From Clostridiales bacterium (GTDB taxonomy: Bacteria > Bacillota > Clostridia > Peptostreptococcales > Anaerovoracaceae), in the NCBI GenBank assembly GCA_012513435.1, contig JAAZCE010000014.1:1-40279 (forward strand): 40,279 nucleotides of DNA, read 5' to 3'. Shown piece by piece: positions 31,410-40,279 of this stretch (position 1 is its first letter; every line of letters starts with the position of its first letter). The position numbers and the translations under genes are program-made. Below the pieces are notes generated by a model. That model was not told the DNA's origin. It saw only the letters and a list, made by a program, of their open reading frames with translations, and ran no database searches.

Positions 31410-32573
31410 CTACAATACTCTCTCAACCAAAACATTAAACCTACCTGAGAAAATAAAGAATCCAAACATTATTAAATTAAAGGTTATAAACCAACAAAGA
31501 AGCTTGTACCACTTCTCCTTTTTATACTTTTTGTGAAGCTTAAATTTCTTCTGATACATTTCCGTAAAAGACAGAAGAATGCCATGATACAGCCCATACA
31601 ATATATACTGCATACTCAGACCGTGCCATACTCCCATTACAGTCATATTTATTATGAATCCAAAGGAAGCACGTGTAAGCTTGCCCTTGAACCAGCTACC
31701 CTTTATTGCCCTCATCATGATTCGAGAAAAGATAAAATCTCTAAACCAATGAGAGAGGGTAATATGCCATCTATCCCAAAACTCTATTATATCCTTGCTG
31801 ATAAAGGGTTTATTAAAGTTTTCCGGAGTTCTTATTCCAAATATATAGCTGACACCTATGGCCATAAGGGAGTATCCTGCGAAATCAAAAAACAAATAAA
31901 ACCCATAGGAATACATATATATAAGTGTCGATGTTATATCCCAACCCATTCCAAGCCTTATTTCAAGCTGATAAAAAGCTGTCGCTATTATCATTTTATA
32001 CACTATTCCAAGGCAAATTTTAAAAAGGCCTTGTCCCAGCAGCTCCAAATACTCGCTCTTGGAAGGAATTTGTTCCAGATCAACCTTAAATCTCCTGCTC
32101 CTGTCAATAGGTCCTGATGTCAATGTGGGAAAGAACAGCAACAGATACATAAAGTCAAAGGGGTTTATTTGTTGAATAATTCCATCAAAAATCTCTATTA
32201 TTATCTGTACGCTCTTAAAGGTCATATATGATATCCCTAAGAAAGCAAATACTTTCAAATCATACAATCCGGCTATCTTTGTTATTGCCAAAGGTGAAAT
32301 TGCAGCGATTATATATATCAAATACAGAATCTGATTTCTTTTAAACCTTTTATTCAATCTAACAAATGTTATTACCAGAAGAAATTCCAACAGACAATAC
32401 GCCCCAAGATATGCCAGTGCCTGAAGATTAGAGCCCATAGCCATCCATATAAAAAACAACGTGGCAGTCATACCGTAATATTTTATCTGCCGTTCACTTA
32501 TACCGAGAATTATCGCGGGGATAGATATAAGAACAAGACAAGCGAAAAAGTTAAAATCGCTAAACAAATTCAT
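31410..32573 (-). CDS. dltB: D-alanyl transfer protein DltB (MBOAT family)
   Basis: The 387-residue multi-pass membrane protein belongs to the MBOAT acyltransferases. It shows the family's 'FFPTLTSGPIDRSRRF' segment, 'FWDRWHITLSHWFRDFIF' and the catalytic histidine in 'MGVWHGLSMQYILYGLYHG'. It passes D-alanine from DltC across the membrane. Its ATG overlaps the dltA stop codon by one base (TAATG), so it is coupled to dltA. The codon and base composition is AT-rich: 19 of 60 bases are G or C in a spot count at 31801-31860. Confidence 0.95.
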   Translation of the reverse strand: MNLFSDFNFFACLVLISIPAIILGISERQIKYYGMTATLFFIWMAMGSNLQALAYLGAYCLLEFLLVITFVRLNKRFKRNQILYLIYIIAAISPLAITKIAGLYDLKVFAFLGISYMTFKSVQIIIEIFDGIIQQINPFDFMYLLLFFPTLTSGPIDRSRRFKVDLEQIPSKSEYLELLGQGLFKICLGIVYKMIIATAFYQLEIRLGMGWDITSTLIYMYSYGFYLFFDFAGYSLMAIGVSYIFGIRTPENFNKPFISKDIIEFWDRWHITLSHWFRDFIFSRIMMRAIKGSWFKGKLTRASFGFIINMTVMGVWHGLSMQYILYGLYHGILLSFTEMYQKKFKLHKKYKKEKWYKLLCWFITFNLIMFGFFIFSGRFNVLVERVL

Positions 32574-34096
32574 TATAGGTATTCCTCTAATTTCTTTCTA
32601 TCCGTTTTTCCGTTTTCCGTCATTGGAAGTTTATCAATAAAAACAATTTTCTTCGGAATCATATATTCCGGCAGCTTCTCCTTAAGCTTTATCCTCACCA
32701 TTCTTCTGTCTTGATGATCCCCGACTGCTCCGGGACTTACTAAAAAGGCTGCAAGATATCTGATTCTGTTTTCCTCTGTTTTTGGTACTACAGCTGCGCT
32801 CTCGATTCCGCCTATTGACATTAAATTAGCTTCTATATCTCCCATTTCTATCCTGTAGCCGTGTACCTTAACCTGTAAATCAATTCTTCCGCAGTGATGC
32901 ACCACCTCATTTTCTATGAACCCTTCATCACCTGTTCTATAAGCTCTCATGCTTTTACCGTTTATATTGACCATGCTGAAAACCTGTTCAGTCTTCTCAG
33001 GATTGTTGAAATATCCAGGACTTACCGTATCACCGATAATTTCAATCTCTCCCTTTTCTCCGTCAGAAGCTATGCTTCCGTCATCCTTTATTATTCTCAA
33101 TATTGTTCCCGGCTTTGGCTGCCCTATTGGAAGAGGCCTGTCTGCCTTTATCATTTCATCGTTAATTATAGCCTGGCTTACCGCCACCGTAGACTCGGTC
33201 GGCCCATATGTATTAACAATAATGCTCTTTGGAAATCTCAGGCGAAGTCTTTTAGCCGTCTCTCTTCTCAGCTTTTCACCGCAAAACAGGAAAACCCTAA
33301 GCTCAGGCAGCAAACTGTTGTCAAAGCCTTTATCCGACAGACATACATCTGCAAATGATGGCGTAGATACCCAATAATTTATAGTTCCTTCTGCGATGTA
33401 ATCAAGAAGCCTTCTGGTTTCTTTTTGCATTTCTTTATCAAGGCACCATACAGTTCCTCCCGAGACAAGGGCTGTATAGGTGTCCATAACCGACAAATCA
33501 AAAGAAAATGGTGCCTGATTCAAAAATATGCTTCCTTCTTTATCCTTTGGGCTGTCTCCAAGGGTAACTGACCATTGTGTGTATCTGCTGAGATTCTCAC
33601 TTGTAATCTGTACTCCCTTAGGCTCTCCTGTACTTCCTGATGTAAATATTATGTAAAACACGTCCTCTGGCTTTACCCACCCTTTTGTTCCTATCCTAAG
33701 GCAGGAATCTGCGGCCTCCTTTATTTCCTCAAGGCTCATAACTCTTACTTTATCCGGTAGCCTTTGTATATCCTGCTCATCCGTTGCCAGAACCAAAACA
33801 TTATCAACAGCTTTTACAATAGCTTCAATTCGTTCTTCAGGCATGGACGTGTCCACGGGGCAGTATGCCCTGCCGGATTTTACACAGGCAAAAAAGCATA
33901 CTACCATCCATGGATTTTTATGTCCGTACACAACAATTGCTTTTTTGCTTAGTCCTAATTCCATGTCCAGCTGCCATGCTAATCGATCTGACTTTTCCCA
34001 CAAATCTTCATATGTCATTTCTTCCTCAGAAGAGTGAAAAGCAATATTGCTTCCAAAATCCACAACTCGCCTTGAAATTTTTTCTAATATTTCCAT
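32573..34096 (-). CDS. dltA: D-alanine--D-alanyl carrier protein ligase DltA
   Basis: The 507-residue enzyme of the AMP-forming adenylation superfamily activates D-alanine and loads it onto DltC. Visible core motifs are the phosphate loop 'YIIFTSGSTGEPKGVQI' (about residues 148-164), 'NTYGPTESTVAVSQA', 'YRTGDEGFIENEVVHHCGR' and the catalytic lysine region 'PMTENGKTDRKKLEEYL' at the C-terminus. It is the first gene of the operon; a GGAGG site precedes the ATG at 34096. Upstream lies a promoter region with three direct repeats (34162-34194). Confidence 0.96.
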   Translation of the reverse strand: MEILEKISRRVVDFGSNIAFHSSEEEMTYEDLWEKSDRLAWQLDMELGLSKKAIVVYGHKNPWMVVCFFACVKSGRAYCPVDTSMPEERIEAIVKAVDNVLVLATDEQDIQRLPDKVRVMSLEEIKEAADSCLRIGTKGWVKPEDVFYIIFTSGSTGEPKGVQITSENLSRYTQWSVTLGDSPKDKEGSIFLNQAPFSFDLSVMDTYTALVSGGTVWCLDKEMQKETRRLLDYIAEGTINYWVSTPSFADVCLSDKGFDNSLLPELRVFLFCGEKLRRETAKRLRLRFPKSIIVNTYGPTESTVAVSQAIINDEMIKADRPLPIGQPKPGTILRIIKDDGSIASDGEKGEIEIIGDTVSPGYFNNPEKTEQVFSMVNINGKSMRAYRTGDEGFIENEVVHHCGRIDLQVKVHGYRIEMGDIEANLMSIGGIESAAVVPKTEENRIRYLAAFLVSPGAVGDHQDRRMVRIKLKEKLPEYMIPKKIVFIDKLPMTENGKTDRKKLEEYL

Positions 34097-34295: not shown

Positions 34296-35009
34296 CTATC
34301 CCAGCTTCTTTATTTCCCTTTGAAGGCGGGTAATGATTTTTTTCTCCAGCCGCGAAATATATGACTGGGATATTCCCATTCTGTCGGCCACCTCCTTCTG
34401 AGTCAATTCGCATCCGCCTATAAGCCCAAACCGCATTTCAACGATTTCCCTCTCCCTGCCGCTGAGCTTACCCATAGCGTAAACCAGCAGCTTCTTGTTG
34501 ACCTCGTCCTCAATGTGGCTGTAAACCTCATCATTTTCCGTTCCCAAAATATCCGAAAGAAGCAATTCATTGCCGTCCCAGTCCACGTTGAGAGGCTCGT
34601 CAAGGGAGACTTCGCCCCTTATTTTATTGTTCCGACGCAGATACATAAGTATTTCGTTTTCTATGCACCTTGAGGCGTAAGTGGCAAGCTTAATGTTCTT
34701 CTCCACCTTAAATGTATTCACGGCCTTAATAAGCCCGATAGTTCCTATTGAAATCAAGTCCTCCACATTGACTCCGGCGTTCTCGAATTTTTTTGCAATA
34801 TATACCACCAGCCTGAGATTATGCTCAATAAGTGTGTCCCTGTCCTTCTTGCTTCCTGCCATAAATCCCATAATAGCCCTATGCTCTTCTTCAGCAGGCA
34901 AGGGCGGTGGCAGCATATCGCTTCCTCCTATGTAAAACAACCTTTCATAGCTCTTTCCAGACAAAAGCCTCCTTAGCAGCCTCCTGATTCTCCCCATAAA
35001 TCCCAACAT
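34296..35009 (-). CDS. sigE: Early mother-cell sigma factor SigE (pro-SigE)
   Basis: The 237-residue protein has a basic, amphipathic N-terminal pro-sequence (residues 1-27, rich in Arg and Leu) that ends at '[14 protein letters not shown]', which aligns with the Bacillus pro-SigE cleavage region 'YYIGGSEALPPPL'. Region 2 ('[52 protein letters not shown]' in parts) and region 4 are very close to SigE. It is made inactive and cut by SpoIIGA, encoded just upstream with one base between the genes. It switches on the mother-cell programme. No terminator is evident before the dlt promoter region. Confidence 0.97.
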
Positions 35010-35010
35010 T

Positions 35011-35838
35011 TTACAAGCCTCCTTCGTTCATATTATTTGAAAGCAACAGCTCAAAGCCCTCTTTTTCAGGGAACAGCTCTCCCTCGCCCTTGGCGATTAC
35101 ACATCCCTTTATCCGTCTGCCGCCTACCTCTACATAATCTGTCCTTACGCCCTCCATAAGACCCCTGCCTTTTACGAATGTAAAGGGCACTATGCAAAGT
35201 CTCTCCGGTACAAGACTTTTTTCCAGCCTCGCCCAAAGGCTCTTCTCCGCTACAGCCACAGGCTTTCCGCTTGCAGGCTCCCGCAGATGATTGCCCGTAT
35301 CAAGAAACCCCTGAGCCTTTTCTCTTGCATCTCCTATGGCTATGGTCACTTCAAAGGTATGTTCTGCGTAGAGCTTCCTTTCTGCTACCGTTCTCGTCAC
35401 TTGCCTTAAGGTCACAAAAACTATTCCCATAAATAAAGCCAGTATGGCCGCCTTCATATCTCCCGTATATATGCCCGCGCCACAGTAGTACCCGTTGTTT
35501 TTAGTAAGAAGGAGCAACCCCATGGTGATGCCTCCTGTAAAATATGTAACGAGAAAAAAGACAACGGCCCTCTGCAAAAGCCTTTTTCTTCCGAAGGATA
35601 CTAGGCAAACAGCCGGAGCGAAAACCATTTCCATTAAAATCCTAAGGAGAGGCCCCGAGGGAATGAAAATCGTAAGAGCAAAGATTCCGCACATAAAACC
35701 TCCCACTGCCAGTCTTACTTTAGCGACTCCGCCCTTAAATGAGCCGCCGGCGGGCCGGCACACCATACAGGTCATCACAAGAAGTGCCGCTCCTATTATG
35801 CTGTTCTCCAATATGAGAATATCTCCGTATACCACCAT
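35011..35838 (-). CDS. spoIIGA: Sporulation sigma-E processing aspartic peptidase SpoIIGA
   Basis: The 275-residue protein has five or so N-terminal membrane helices (about residues 1-155) and a cytoplasmic C-terminal domain with the aspartic protease motif '[12 protein letters not shown]' (D-T-G at about residues 187-189). It processes pro-SigE after a forespore signal. It is somewhat shorter than Bacillus SpoIIGA (309). It is followed by sigE after one base, as in other spore formers. A GAGGGGG site precedes the ATG, and a probable promoter with a possible Spo0A box lies upstream. Confidence 0.95.
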
Positions 35839-36614: not shown

Positions 36615-37130
36615 TTATTTATCCGTCTTCGGCGTAAGGATCATCGTAAGGCTTCTTCCTTCAAAATTAGGTTTCCTATCCATTTCGCCCACTTCTGAAA
36701 CTGCCTCGGCAAACTTCTGCATAACCTCCATGCCTCTGGCAACGTAATCTCTCTCTCTGCCTCTGAATCTGAGACTGACCTTAAGCTTATCTCCGTCCTT
36801 TAAGAACTTGGACCCTGTCTTTGCCTTTACCATGATGTCGTGGTCCTCAATAAACGTAGAAAGCCTGATTTCCTTAACCTGGGTTGTCTTCTGCTTCTTC
36901 TTGGCTTCCTTCTCTTTTTTTTGCATTTCATACTTGTACTTTCCGTAATCAAGTATTTTGCAAACCGGCGGGCTGGCCTTCGGAGAAATACAAACGAGAT
37001 CCAGTTTCTTTTCTTCTGCCATCTCGAGAGCTTCCTCTCTGCTTATTACCCCCAGTTGAGCACCGTCTGCGGCGATTACTCTCAGTTCCTTTGCACGAAT
37101 TTCTTCGTTAATCAATGATTCCTTACTGAT
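36615..37130 (-). CDS. infC: Translation initiation factor IF-3, with a rare AUC start
   Basis: The 171-residue factor prevents premature subunit joining and checks the initiator codon. Its N-domain starts 'SKESLINEEIRAKELRVIAADGAQLGVISREEAL' (in parts); the C-domain includes 'KEIRLSTFIEDHDIMVKAKTGSKFLKDGDKLKVSLRFRGRE' in parts. The start is set at ATC 37130: GGAGGTG lies 7 bases before it and the protein then matches family N-termini (ISK-ESLIN). An ATG at 37181 would read through the leader terminator and give a hydrophobic extension. Non-AUG starts are a known infC autoregulation device, because IF-3 rejects them. Confidence 0.94.
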   Translation of the reverse strand: MSKESLINEEIRAKELRVIAADGAQLGVISREEALEMAEEKKLDLVCISPKASPPVCKILDYGKYKYEMQKKEKEAKKKQKTTQVKEIRLSTFIEDHDIMVKAKTGSKFLKDGDKLKVSLRFRGRERDYVARGMEVMQKFAEAVSEVGEMDRKPNFEGRSLTMILTPKTDK

Positions 37131-37290
37131 TTTCTTACACCTCCAAAAAATATAAAAAGCGGATAAAAGTATCCGCTTCATCTCACATTTCCCATAAACA
37201 GACCCACAACAAGCCGCTTATGATAAAAGTCTTTATTAACCCAAGTAACTTTCGCCCTTAGGTGAGAAGCGGACAACTTCTTCTTTACTA
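37131..37290 (-). promoter_or_regulatory. infC-rpmI-rplT leader with terminator (L20-leader-like attenuator)
   Basis: The minus-strand leader contains a terminator: AAGCGGATA (37178-37170) pairs with TATCCGCTT (37165-37157), followed by TTTATATTTTTT. A competing pairing is visible: CCGCTTCTCAC (37272-37262) is complementary to GTGAG plus AAGCGG (37186-37173, with a 3-base bulge), and this uses the left arm of the terminator. Such alternative folds, controlled by L20, are established for Firmicute infC leaders. The exact family match is by recall and not computed. Confidence 0.75.
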
Positions 37291-37774: not shown

Positions 37775-37790
37775 GATACGTTTTTGTATC
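37775..37790. promoter_or_regulatory. Operator GATAC-N6-GTATC before the sigma-54 activator gene
   Basis: A perfect palindrome with arms GATAC (37775-37779) and GTATC (37786-37790) around GTTTTT. It ends 7 bp before the -35 box of the activator's own promoter. The same element occurs three times downstream of the gene, so autoregulation is likely (inference). Confidence 0.75.
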
Positions 37791-37797
37791 ATATTTC

Positions 37798-37826
37798 TTG
37801 TTAATAGTCTTTCTCTAATGTATAAT
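37798..37826 (+). promoter_or_regulatory. SigA-type promoter of the sigma-54 activator gene
   Basis: TTGTTA (37798-37803), a 17-bp spacer and TATAAT (37821-37826) lie 25 bp before the ATG at 37852. Confidence 0.7.
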
Positions 37827-37851
37827 AATATGTATATAAAGGAGACATTTT

Positions 37852-39252
37852 ATGACATTGGAATTTTCGAACAGCATAAAAATAAACCAACTGCTCCCAA
37901 TCCTGGACAGCATAAGCGACGCCGTATTTATCGATGACCGCGACGGACATTGCCTATGGTGCAATAATGCCTGCGAAGAGCTTTACAAGATAGATTCCGA
38001 TGATATATGCGGCATGCATGTGGAGGAATTGGAGAAAATGGGAATCTTCACCCCATCCGTAACCAGGCGCGTACTGGAGGAGGAGCGGGAAATAACCATA
38101 ATCCACGAAAACAAGCTGGGCAAGAGGCTTCTGACTACGGGAACTCCTATTTTTTCCCATGAGGGCAAGCTTTCCAAGGTGATTACCACATCAAGAGATA
38201 TCACTCGCCTGACCTCCTTAGAAAACAAGCCGGAAGCAACCGAGCCCATGATAGATGTGAACGACATAGAGGACGGGAATGTTTACGGTGATATAATCGC
38301 CAAGTCACTGACAATGCAAAACGTAATGTCACTGACCAAAAAGCTGGCCACGGTGAACTCCACCGTGCTGATAACAGGAGAATCCGGCGTGGGCAAGGGA
38401 CTTATTGCCAAGCTTCTCCACGAAGAAGGCAACCGCTGGGAAGGGCCCTTCGTCACCGTCAACTGCGGCGCTATACCTGAAAATCTCATTGAATCAGAGC
38501 TGTTTGGCTACGCTTCAGGCGCTTTTACCGGCTCCCGTTCCGGAGGCAAGCAGGGTCTTTTTGAAGCTGCTCAGGACGGTACTATATTCCTCGACGAAAT
38601 TTCCGAGCTGCCCCTCAATTTGCAGGTCAAGCTCCTTCAAGTAATTCAAGAAAGAGAGATTACCCCTGTAGGCGGCGTGGAACCGGTTCCCGTGGATGTA
38701 AGAGTGGTGTCCGCCACAAACAAGGACCTTCTGGAGCTTGTAAAGCAAAACAAGTTCAGAGAAGACCTCTATTACCGGCTAAACGTAGTACCTATAAATG
38801 TACCGCCTCTGCGAGACAGACCGGAAGATATCCTGCCTCTCATTCACAGCTATCTGGCCAAATATAATCAATCCCTGCAAAACAACAAATCTATGAGCCC
38901 CGAAGTTTTGACAGTGCTTCTCAAATATCCTTGGCCTGGCAACATACGCGAGCTGCAGAATATAATAGAGCGATTGATAATAACAACCAGCGGCAGCACC
39001 ATTACAGATGACGACCTGCCTATATTCCTCAAACAGGAGGCTGAGGTGAACGCCAATATCTATACCGACCTCTCCCTGGCGGCATCTATGGAAAAGGCCG
39101 AACGGGAAATACTGATCAGAGCCCTAGCCAGCTATAAGTCCACCAGAGCTATTGCCAAGGTGCTGCGAGTGAGCCAGCCTACCGTAGTTAGGAAGCTTCA
39201 CAAGCACCATCTCGGTACTTCCGATACTGTTGAAACAGTTGAAAAGCAATAG
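37852..39252 (+). CDS. PAS-domain sigma-54-dependent transcriptional activator with TyrR-like HTH
   Basis: The 466-residue enhancer-binding protein has a PAS domain (about residues 12-120). The AAA+ domain (about 145-385) has Walker A GESGVGKG (176-183), the sigma-54-contact loop GAFTGS (223-228, final A replaced by S) and Walker B 'TIFLDEISELP'. A C-terminal HTH follows ('TRAIAKVLRVSQPTVVRKLHKHHLG' in parts). There is no receiver domain, so a ligand or redox signal sensed by PAS is likely. AAAGGAG precedes the ATG. Four GATAC-N6-GTATC palindromes flank the gene, and the aldehyde dehydrogenase downstream has a -24/-12 promoter, so it is the probable target. Confidence 0.93.
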   Translation: MTLEFSNSIKINQLLPILDSISDAVFIDDRDGHCLWCNNACEELYKIDSDDICGMHVEELEKMGIFTPSVTRRVLEEEREITIIHENKLGKRLLTTGTPIFSHEGKLSKVITTSRDITRLTSLENKPEATEPMIDVNDIEDGNVYGDIIAKSLTMQNVMSLTKKLATVNSTVLITGESGVGKGLIAKLLHEEGNRWEGPFVTVNCGAIPENLIESELFGYASGAFTGSRSGGKQGLFEAAQDGTIFLDEISELPLNLQVKLLQVIQEREITPVGGVEPVPVDVRVVSATNKDLLELVKQNKFREDLYYRLNVVPINVPPLRDRPEDILPLIHSYLAKYNQSLQNNKSMSPEVLTVLLKYPWPGNIRELQNIIERLIITTSGSTITDDDLPIFLKQEAEVNANIYTDLSLAASMEKAEREILIRALASYKSTRAIAKVLRVSQPTVVRKLHKHHLGTSDTVETVEKQ

Positions 39253-39265
39253 TTTTAAGAGGTGC

Positions 39266-39281
39266 GATACATTTTTGTATC
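39266..39281. promoter_or_regulatory. Upstream activator site 1 (GATAC-N6-GTATC)
   Basis: Perfect palindrome with arms at 39266-39270 and 39277-39281 around ATTTTT, 14 bp after the activator stop codon and about 270 bp before the -24/-12 promoter. Confidence 0.75.
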
Positions 39282-39284
39282 TCT

Positions 39285-39300
39285 GATACTTTTTTGTATC
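39285..39300. promoter_or_regulatory. Upstream activator site 2 (GATAC-N6-GTATC)
   Basis: Perfect palindrome with arms at 39285-39289 and 39296-39300 around TTTTTT; flanking T and A extend each arm to six bases. Its centre is 19 bp from that of site 1, close to two helical turns, so both lie on one face of the DNA. Confidence 0.75.
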
Positions 39301-39352
39301 AGTTCCCTTATCCAGTGTTTCAAAGGCTTATTTTGTTTTAAACTACATATTT

Positions 39353-39386
39353 ACAGCAAGTGATACGTTATTGTATCACTTGCTGT
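39353..39386 (+). promoter_or_regulatory. Upstream activator site 3 inside a 14-bp inverted repeat, possibly also the activator's terminator
   Basis: GATAC-GTTATT-GTATC (39362-39377) is the core of a longer perfect inverted repeat with arms 39353-39366 and 39373-39386. The right arm is followed by TTTC. The element could serve both as operator and as an intrinsic terminator for the activator gene. The rest of the 388-bp gene-free stretch 39253-39640 holds sites 1 and 2 and the -24/-12 promoter; nothing else is recognised. Confidence 0.65.
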
Positions 39387-39552
39387 TTTCCCAGTACTAT
39401 TTTTACACTCCCCCCTTTATCGCAGTAAAGGAATGTATACAATATTTTTATCTTTCATACTCTAGTCCATTTCTTTGTTTTTCAACGTTTGCATTGATTT
39501 TACTTGTGTTTTTTTGGTTTTGTTCCTAAAAGCATCAGCTTGTCCCCGGTTT

Positions 39553-39568
39553 TGGCACGGCAGTTGCT
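39553..39568 (+). promoter_or_regulatory. Sigma-54 (-24/-12) promoter of the aldehyde dehydrogenase gene
   Basis: TGGCAC (39553-39558), five bases, then TTGCT (39564-39568) match the sigma-54 consensus TGGCAC-N5-TTGCW exactly. The GG and GC dinucleotides are 12 bp apart as required. The expected start is near 39579, leaving a leader of about 60 nt before the ATG. Confidence 0.9.
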
Positions 39569-39640: not shown

Positions 39641-40279
39641 ATGGCAATGGATGCTCAAAAATTACAAGAATGCAAAGAATACGTTGCAGGTCTTGTAGCA
39701 AAAGCTAGAAAAGCACAGGAAATCGCTAATGGATTCACTCAGGAAGATGTTGACCTCATGACAGCGGCTGTGACTTACAACCTTACTAAGGCAGACAAGG
39801 TTAAGATGTATGCTGAAATGCTGGTTGAAGAATCCGGCATGGGTATTGCAGAAGATAAGGTTGGCAAAATTTATGGTAAGGTTTGGGGTTCATACCTCCA
39901 GATGAAAGATGAGAAATCCGTTGGTCTCGTAGAAGTTGACGAGAAGAACGGTCTTGAAAAATGGGCTAAGCCAATGGGCGTTGTTGCTGGCATCATGCCT
40001 GTAACCAACGGAGAAGCAACTCCTATCGTTAAAGCTAACATGGCTCTTAAGACTAGAAACGCTATCATCTTAGCACCTCACCCTAAATGTAAGAAGCTCA
40101 ACGTTGTAATCGTTAACGAAATTAGAGCTACTCTTAAGAAATTAGGATATCCTGAAGATTTAGTTCAGGGATTGGATCCTGAATGGGTTAAGTTAGAAAC
40201 TTCACAGCAGTTAATGAAGCAGTGTGATATTATACTGGCAACAGGCGGCGAAGCTCTCGTAGAAACTGCTTATTCCTCC
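39641..40279 (+). CDS. Acylating (CoA-dependent) aldehyde dehydrogenase, 3' end outside the window
   Basis: The first 213 codons are open to the window edge. The protein aligns by eye with the N-terminal domain of AdhE and other acylating aldehyde dehydrogenases: 'VEESGMGIAEDKV' (63-75), 'KPMGVVAGIMP' (110-120), 'MALKTRNAIILAPHPK' (134-149), 'DIILATGGEALVETAYSS' (196-213). Such enzymes interconvert an aldehyde and its acyl-CoA with NAD(P)H. At the usual 'TNPTST' it has 'TNGEATP' (122-128), so the substrate may differ; sulfoacetaldehyde- or semialdehyde-type enzymes are options. The catalytic cysteine is outside. Codons look biased towards strong expression. AAAGGAGG precedes the ATG. It is controlled by the -24/-12 promoter. 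Confidence 0.9.
   Translation, partial: MAMDAQKLQECKEYVAGLVAKARKAQEIANGFTQEDVDLMTAAVTYNLTKADKVKMYAEMLVEESGMGIAEDKVGKIYGKVWGSYLQMKDEKSVGLVEVDEKNGLEKWAKPMGVVAGIMPVTNGEATPIVKANMALKTRNAIILAPHPKCKKLNVVIVNEIRATLKKLGYPEDLVQGLDPEWVKLETSQQLMKQCDIILATGGEALVETAYSS

Follow-up and report, generated by a model that had tools for sequence, protein, structure and literature searches.

Four exact copies of the palindrome GATACN6GTATC surround the gene of a predicted sigma-54 activator in the window, that is, the whole 40,279-nucleotide stretch of clostridial DNA analysed here. The question raised by this locus is whether these palindromes are operators through which the adjacent activator controls a neighbouring sigma-54 promoter and, if so, which genes form the target. 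One copy precedes the activator gene and three lie between it and an aldehyde dehydrogenase gene, as a sequence-only reading of the same DNA had reported (Table 1).

Table 1. Predicted features of the activator-dehydrogenase locus, in window coordinates.
Feature	Position	Strand	Basis or remark
Operator 0, GATACGTTTTTGTATC	37775–37790	.	7 bp upstream of the activator -35; centre at about -50 from the predicted start
Sigma-70-type promoter of the activator gene, TTGTTA-17-TATAAT	37798–37826	+	Consensus match only
PAS / AAA+ (Sigma54_activat) / HTH_50 sigma-54 activator gene, 466 aa	37852–39252	+	Domain matches
Operator 1, GATACATTTTTGTATC, putative enhancer	39266–39281	.	Exact palindrome; orthologue conservation
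Operator 2, GATACTTTTTTGTATC, putative enhancer	39285–39300	.	19 bp from operator 1
Hairpin of 15 pairs with operator 3 at its centre; may terminate the activator transcript	39353–39386	+	Folding; short T tail
Operator 3, GATACGTTATTGTATC, putative enhancer	39362–39377	.	77 bp from operator 2
-24/-12 element, TTGGCACGGCAGTTGC	39552–39567	+	One of two exact TTGGCACN5TTGC matches in the genome
CoA-acylating-type aldehyde dehydrogenase gene, 5' part	39641–40279	+	Contig ends inside the gene

When the window was shuffled in 100-bp blocks, 0.036 exact matches were expected per window (500 shuffles, maximum 1), and for the 2.4-kb stretch that surrounds the sites the expectation was 0.0026 (blocks of the same size, 20,000 shuffles, maximum 1). 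With up to two mismatches allowed, the window holds 17 matches, the four exact ones included, a total no greater than chance would give (12.9 expected). Random scatter over the genome, which the sequence-only reading had named as evidence against its circuit, was looked for next: across the whole genome (2.28 Mb in 109 contigs), four of the seven exact copies lie at the activator locus, and a reversed control pattern has no match genome-wide. The wider pattern GATWCN6GWATC has 16 genomic matches, 12 of them outside the activator locus. The 11 of these that were read (all but C101:87183) fall inside open frames of 450–3,014 nt, measured from stop to stop, and have no sigma-54-like motif within 1.5 kb; no wider regulon was found among them, and the proposed circuit is not refuted by the scan.

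Several neighbouring genes upstream of the activator could be named. DltA and an adjoining MBOAT protein, DltB-like by position, mark a D-alanylation operon (31410–34096, minus strand), and a sigma-70-family factor adjoins SpoIIGA (34296–35838, minus strand), an arrangement that we take to be that of the sporulation sigma-E pair. The gene for translation initiation factor IF-3 (36615–37181, minus strand) is followed by ribosomal protein genes; these were recognised by eye, as was a thioredoxin-like gene between the IF-3 and activator genes.

The activator has a PAS domain, and its AAA+ sigma-54 interaction domain scored 228.5 bits against PF00158 (cut-off 20.2), and HTH_50 scored 40.8 bits against PF18024 (cut-off 27). 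We take HTH_50 to be the TyrR-type DNA-binding domain, and its score above the cut-off upholds the TyrR-like HTH ascribed to the protein earlier; the solved TyrR homologue 1g2h matched weakly (E 0.45), in keeping with this. The best NCBIfam model was PrdR, with 421 bits under a cut-off of 795, and TyrR reached 289 bits under a cut-off of 576. Because none of the 25 top-ranking NCBIfam models, which include PrdR, PrpR and TyrR, reached its cut-off, the protein is classed here as a predicted sigma-54 activator that belongs to no named equivalog. In the genome there is one match to sigma-54 itself (PF04552, contig C83), together with ten strong and three weak matches to other activators. A -24/-12-like motif follows the gene at 127–216 bp in eight of these ten. 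Repeated palindromes of the same N6 geometry but other half-sites stand beside -24/-12-like motifs at two of the ten, GAACC-N6-GGTTC at L016 and TGCAA-N6-TTGCA at L018, and these are candidate operators of other switches.

The -24/-12 promoter, earlier called perfect, is indeed an exact match to TTGGCACN5TTGC. Measured from start to start, operators 1, 2 and 3 lie 286, 267 and 190 bp upstream of it. A distance of 180–290 bp had been claimed for all four sites; this holds for the three downstream copies and fails for the site at 37775, which lies in front of the activator gene, 1,777 bp from the element. The 19-bp distance between sites 1 and 2 was confirmed in the window, and it recurs in 27 of 29 three-site arrays, the other two having 20 bp. 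Site 3 follows site 2 at 77–80 bp in 18 of these arrays, at 98 bp in eight, at 91 bp in two and at 102 bp in one, and the step from about 78 to 98 bp would be close to two helical turns. Among 37 loci with downstream sites, 27 have a promoter motif, 79–237 bp beyond the last site; no pattern of the TTGGCAC-N5-TTGC type was found in the other ten.

Whether the palindromes belong to this activator in particular was examined through 48 orthologous loci (L022–L049, L051 and L102–L120), which became 47 once L106 had been dropped as a duplicate of L049, and through 51 control loci of other sigma-54 activators (L050 and L052–L101). In the first count, which covered 300 bp before and 400 bp after the activator gene, GATWCN6GWATC occurred 128 times, at 45 of the 47 orthologous loci, and was absent from all 51 control loci; 11 other palindromes of similar make-up gave 0–1 matches in the orthologue or control set. 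In that count, the best BLAST segment, whose start is in many cases inside the gene, served as the reference for 'upstream' at the control loci. After the gene starts had been extended, which left two orthologues and two controls without an upstream stretch and two orthologues without a downstream one, the recount gave 125 sites at 44 of the 47 orthologous loci and again none at the 51 controls. Over whole loci the figures are 135 sites in 317 kb for the orthologues vs none in 490 kb for the controls, the orthologues being related and their site counts not independent. L104 and L112 had no site in the stretch scored in either count (L104 has one further downstream), and L047, a locus without its downstream region, had none in the recount. 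Chance as the origin of the palindromes is rejected in view of the shuffles, the genome count and this comparison of orthologous with control loci.

Binding of the sites by the activator is read from conservation and adjacency, and the operators might instead belong to another DNA-binding protein, for example a repressor. We regard this as most improbable: the sites gather around one orthologous group and around none of the 51 other activators, and in an alignment of 44 orthologues at least 95% retain the HTH segment SQPT.VRK (L047, L117 and L120, truncated or incomplete, were left out of the alignment), whereas the corresponding segments of the ten other strong activators in the genome differ from it. 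Nor was a repeated GATAC palindrome found in the scanned flanks of those ten.

The orthologous loci also allow the operator to be described more fully. In 100 downstream sites, collected with a search pattern that fixed GATWC and GWATC and left positions 6 and 11 free, position 6 is A and position 11 is T, each at a frequency of 0.93. The fuller operator consensus is GATWCA-N4-TGWATC, preceded by Y and followed mostly by A or G. All four sites of the window have T at position 11 and one has A at position 6, and a search of the orthologous loci with one mismatch to GATACN6GTATC also returned GATGC and GCATC variants. The TyrR-box type of geometry proposed earlier, 5-6-5, survives in part: the N6 spacer and the G-N14-C pair agree, but 5-6-5 is too short and the half-site differs from that of the TyrR box. 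Despite the symmetric half-sites, 67 of the 100 sites have a T-rich spacer and 25 an A-rich one when read on the activator-sense strand.

The arrangement of genes ties the sites to their putative target as well as to the activator. At L110, L114, L116 and L120 the dehydrogenase and activator genes are divergently oriented, with sites in the stretch that separates them; at L032 the dehydrogenase gene is about 4 kb from the activator gene and is preceded by two sites, 3.8 kb from the activator gene. The operators stay with the target gene when gene order changes. Of 349 family genomes searched for the 19-bp tandem operator, 47 have it, each as a single copy, and all 30 of these loci that were examined (that of the window included) adjoin an orthologue of the activator and/or the dehydrogenase, 27 of them both. 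Since the tandem operator is found once per genome and beside these genes, the system looks like a single-target switch. Across 99 family genomes, 18 carry both activator and dehydrogenase, two the activator alone, 16 the dehydrogenase alone and 63 neither (Fisher p 1e-8, kinship ignored). The cut-offs for these counts were set after the genome lists had been viewed: at least 54% identity over the matched part for the activator, with a partial hit in G007 included, E <1e-150 for the dehydrogenase and E <1e-100 for the aminotransferase. The dehydrogenase lacks the activator in 16 of 34 genomes and the activator lacks a full dehydrogenase match in two of 20; for the 16 of 99 genomes with the dehydrogenase and no activator, another form of control or an assembly gap must account.

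The site counts at the orthologous loci, the conserved spacing and the movement of the sites with the target together strongly support the reading of the palindromes as putative operators and enhancers, and the sigma-54 circuit first suggested from the window gains by the same evidence. On these comparisons, it is very likely that the locus encodes a self-contained sigma-54 switch, with operators of the adjacent activator as enhancers and a dehydrogenase-aminotransferase operon as target.

A different role for the downstream palindromes, mainly as terminators of the activator gene with their operator likeness secondary, is suggested by the hairpin of which operator 3 is the core (-23 kcal/mol, z -8.7). 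At 35 orthologous third sites, flank pairing is 4.23 of 8, whereas 300 swaps of the flanks gave 3.57 ± 0.22 with a highest value of 4.20. Terminator-like hairpins centred on site 3 are found at 12 of 35; swapping of the 3' flanks gives 5.9 ± 1.8, and a count of 12 arises in 4 of 2,000 such permutations. In a broader scan, 30 of 37 loci have terminator-like hairpins, which are operator-centred in 15; however, 23 of the 38 hairpins lie elsewhere. The other sites show no clear excess over swapped flanks, with five of 33 at site 1 (2.8 expected; reached by 199 of 2,000 permutations), two of 29 at site 2 (1.8 expected; 1,307 of 2,000) and two of 28 at the upstream site (0.9 expected; 435 of 2,000), and a terminator role was rejected for all three. 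The hairpin in the window has a short T tail and was not listed by a general terminator scan of the region, which returned a weaker hairpin at site 1 that does not exceed the shuffled background. A terminator, moreover, needs neither a fixed GATWC half-site nor a fixed spacing, and the sites remain by the target gene where gene order differs. As the main function of the palindromes, termination is therefore very unlikely.

That sites 1 and 2 pair as mirror images and so form a hairpin as a general feature of these loci was also considered and rejected, there being no signal over 28 loci (a value as high as the observed one arises in 1,834 of 5,000 permutations). In L033, L039, L105 and L118 the two sites do form one hairpin of 17–23 pairs; the other 24 of the 28 loci with 19-bp spacing reach 9 at most.

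If operator 3 is both an enhancer site and part of the activator gene's terminator, readthrough, bound activator and terminator hairpin could influence one another at the palindrome that they share. A literature search with very narrow terms, which carries little weight, found no case of operator/terminator overlap. Such an overlap would let two kinds of selection on a single DNA palindrome be studied in a simple and testable setting.

The remaining copy, upstream of the activator gene, calls for a separate explanation. Its 7-bp gap to the activator -35 was confirmed, and the region holds eight promoter-like matches vs 4.7 in shuffles. A site upstream of the activator gene was found at 23 loci, in five of which (L110, L114, L116, L119 and L120) the layout is divergent or unclear. 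In the other 18, the centre of the site lies at -50/-51 in seven (the window included), at +2 in six, at +8 in four and at +11 in one, relative to a start predicted from the best-scoring sigma-70-type consensus match within about 100 bp. An operator over the transcription start is in the classic position for repression, and the -50 position is compatible with repression or activation. Since the site at 37775 stands beside the activator's own sigma-70-type promoter and about 1.8 kb from the -24/-12 promoter, it is probably autoregulatory and not an enhancer of the latter.

The contig ends inside the dehydrogenase gene, whose remainder was located on another contig (C70:1–948; 90% identical to L024), followed by a gene for an aminotransferase like Toa (C70:991–2316). 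The dehydrogenase gene had been proposed as the target by itself; its place under the sigma-54 promoter stands, and the lone gene gives way to a predicted operon with the aminotransferase, which is present in 33 of the 34 family genomes with the dehydrogenase. Conservation does not extend to the next gene, which is an AMP-binding acyl-CoA synthetase gene in L023 and L024 and LarA-like in L043, and in the present genome a LexA-like protein was recognised there by eye.

The dehydrogenase appears closest to acylating families. Its best NCBIfam model is the sulfoacetaldehyde model SauS (NF047625), to which the orthologue L024 scores 464 bits, under the cut-off of 600, and its best solved relative is 8cei, an acylating succinate-semialdehyde dehydrogenase. 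For the aminotransferase of the window's genome, the best solved relative is 6jix, a taurine:2-oxoglutarate aminotransferase (431 bits, E 4.5e-128). The L024 copy, which carries the class III aminotransferase domain PF00202 and is 89% identical to it, scores 448 bits to 6jix, with 230 for the next structure and at most 216 for GABA enzymes among the best 60 solved structures. Judged from these similarities, the substrate of the operon is probably taurine. The same circuit could, with appreciable likelihood though short of an even chance, serve beta-alanine, GABA or another omega-amino acid: the missed SauS cut-off and the succinate-semialdehyde relative both lean that way, and a PAS activator of Bacillus thuringiensis, GabR, controls a GABA aminotransferase gene (PMC4279683). 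The wide gap between the taurine enzyme and the GABA enzymes in the aminotransferase scores, and the rank of the sulfoacetaldehyde model as best for the dehydrogenase, speak against it.

The switch may be pictured as follows. The activator (37852–39252) would bind GATWCA-N4-TGWATC through its TyrR-type HTH, with the three downstream copies as an enhancer array. The bound protein, presumably an oligomer, would loop to the -24/-12 promoter at 39552 and use ATP to bring about transcription of the acylating-type dehydrogenase and taurine-type aminotransferase genes, which would be co-transcribed as one operon. The fourth copy, beside the activator's own sigma-70-type promoter, most likely holds the level of activator down, the sign of this effect being our supposition. 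The signal read by the PAS domain is probably the substrate or the aldehyde, with taurine or sulfoacetaldehyde as the most likely inducer.

These proposals give a concrete operator sequence, regulator and putative target in a group that is represented largely by metagenome-assembled genomes; the genomes of relatives come from goat, roe deer and horse samples, among others, and Candidatus Colimonas, the host of one orthologue, is assigned to Anaerovoracaceae. They also offer a testable link between taurine and sigma-54 control, a point on which no paper appeared among the literature matches listed. If the taurine reading is true, sulfoacetaldehyde may be oxidised via a CoA ester instead of being reduced to isethionate, and the sulfonate passed to sulfite-reducing neighbours would be expected to change. 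That the locus has an enhancer site inside the activator's terminator, that it is the first sigma-54 switch to govern a fermentative, CoA-linked pathway for taurine, and that its autoregulatory operator lies at -50 in some relatives and over the start in others is a tentative claim, and as a whole rather unlikely to hold.

Several known systems resemble parts of this circuit. In Clostridia, the gene of a sigma-54 activator usually adjoins its target, with binding sites mostly 100–250 bp before a TTGGCAT-N5-TTGCT promoter; most groups have several sites, and 170 of 263 activators have a single target operon (Nie et al., 2019; PMC6615313). The window circuit is like these groups in having the activator beside the target, multiple upstream sites and a sigma-54 promoter, and its layout is the one known from Clostridia, with an operator code of its own. 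Table 1 of that study (39 groups; PMC6615313) names no target that combines a taurine-type aminotransferase with an acylating dehydrogenase; novelty relative to it rests on the targets in this table, and one of its groups could still carry the motif. As letter strings, neither half-site occurred in the text of the sigma-54 papers among the matches listed. AdhR of Clostridium beijerinckii likewise has three sites before a dehydrogenase gene with a sigma-54 promoter, and the promoter is fully active only with all three, but it differs in its GAF and PAS domains and alcohol dehydrogenase targets (PMC7017808), as well as in its motif of TGT/ACA repeats with a 10–12 bp spacer (PMC6615313). GabR is similarly a PAS-AAA+-HTH sigma-54 activator of an aminotransferase gene, although it binds a region with a 21-bp repeat and its target is the GABA shunt (PMC4279683). 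The TyrR box, TGTAAA-N6-TTTACA with an invariant G-N14-C pair, shares its N6 spacer and that pair with the window sites; in contrast, its half-site is TGTAAA rather than YGATWC, TyrR regulates aromatic amino acid genes, and its activating boxes lie further up, 33 bp above the -35 in ipdC and 42 bp in mtr (PMC4374768).

On the metabolic side, Toa, the closest solved relative of the aminotransferase, belongs with TauF to a pathway of Bifidobacterium kashiwanohense that uses taurine nitrogen and reduces sulfoacetaldehyde to isethionate (PMC6616044); unlike in that pathway, an acylating-type dehydrogenase gene adjoins the aminotransferase gene here. CoA-acylating oxidation of sulfoacetaldehyde or 3-sulfopropionaldehyde is described for SqwD and HpfX of fermenting bacteria, which we liken to the present dehydrogenase by the described reaction; they belong, however, to sulfoquinovose or DHPS pathways and are paired with a CoA ligase (PMC11489063, PMC11659671). 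The HpfYZ ligase is of PF08442/PF02629 (PMC11489063, PMC11659671), and a search of this genome for a PF08442 ligase of the HpfYZ type, for the last ATP-yielding step, found none. Toa beside an acylating dehydrogenase was not seen described among the matches listed or in the available portions of these papers (PMC6616044, PMC11489063, PMC11659671), and it would be a further combination beyond the known pathways. Taken with the clostridial precedents, the switch is of a known type, made up of a clostridial activator, an enhancer and a sigma-54 operon, of which it is a new example with its own operator and a probable taurine target.
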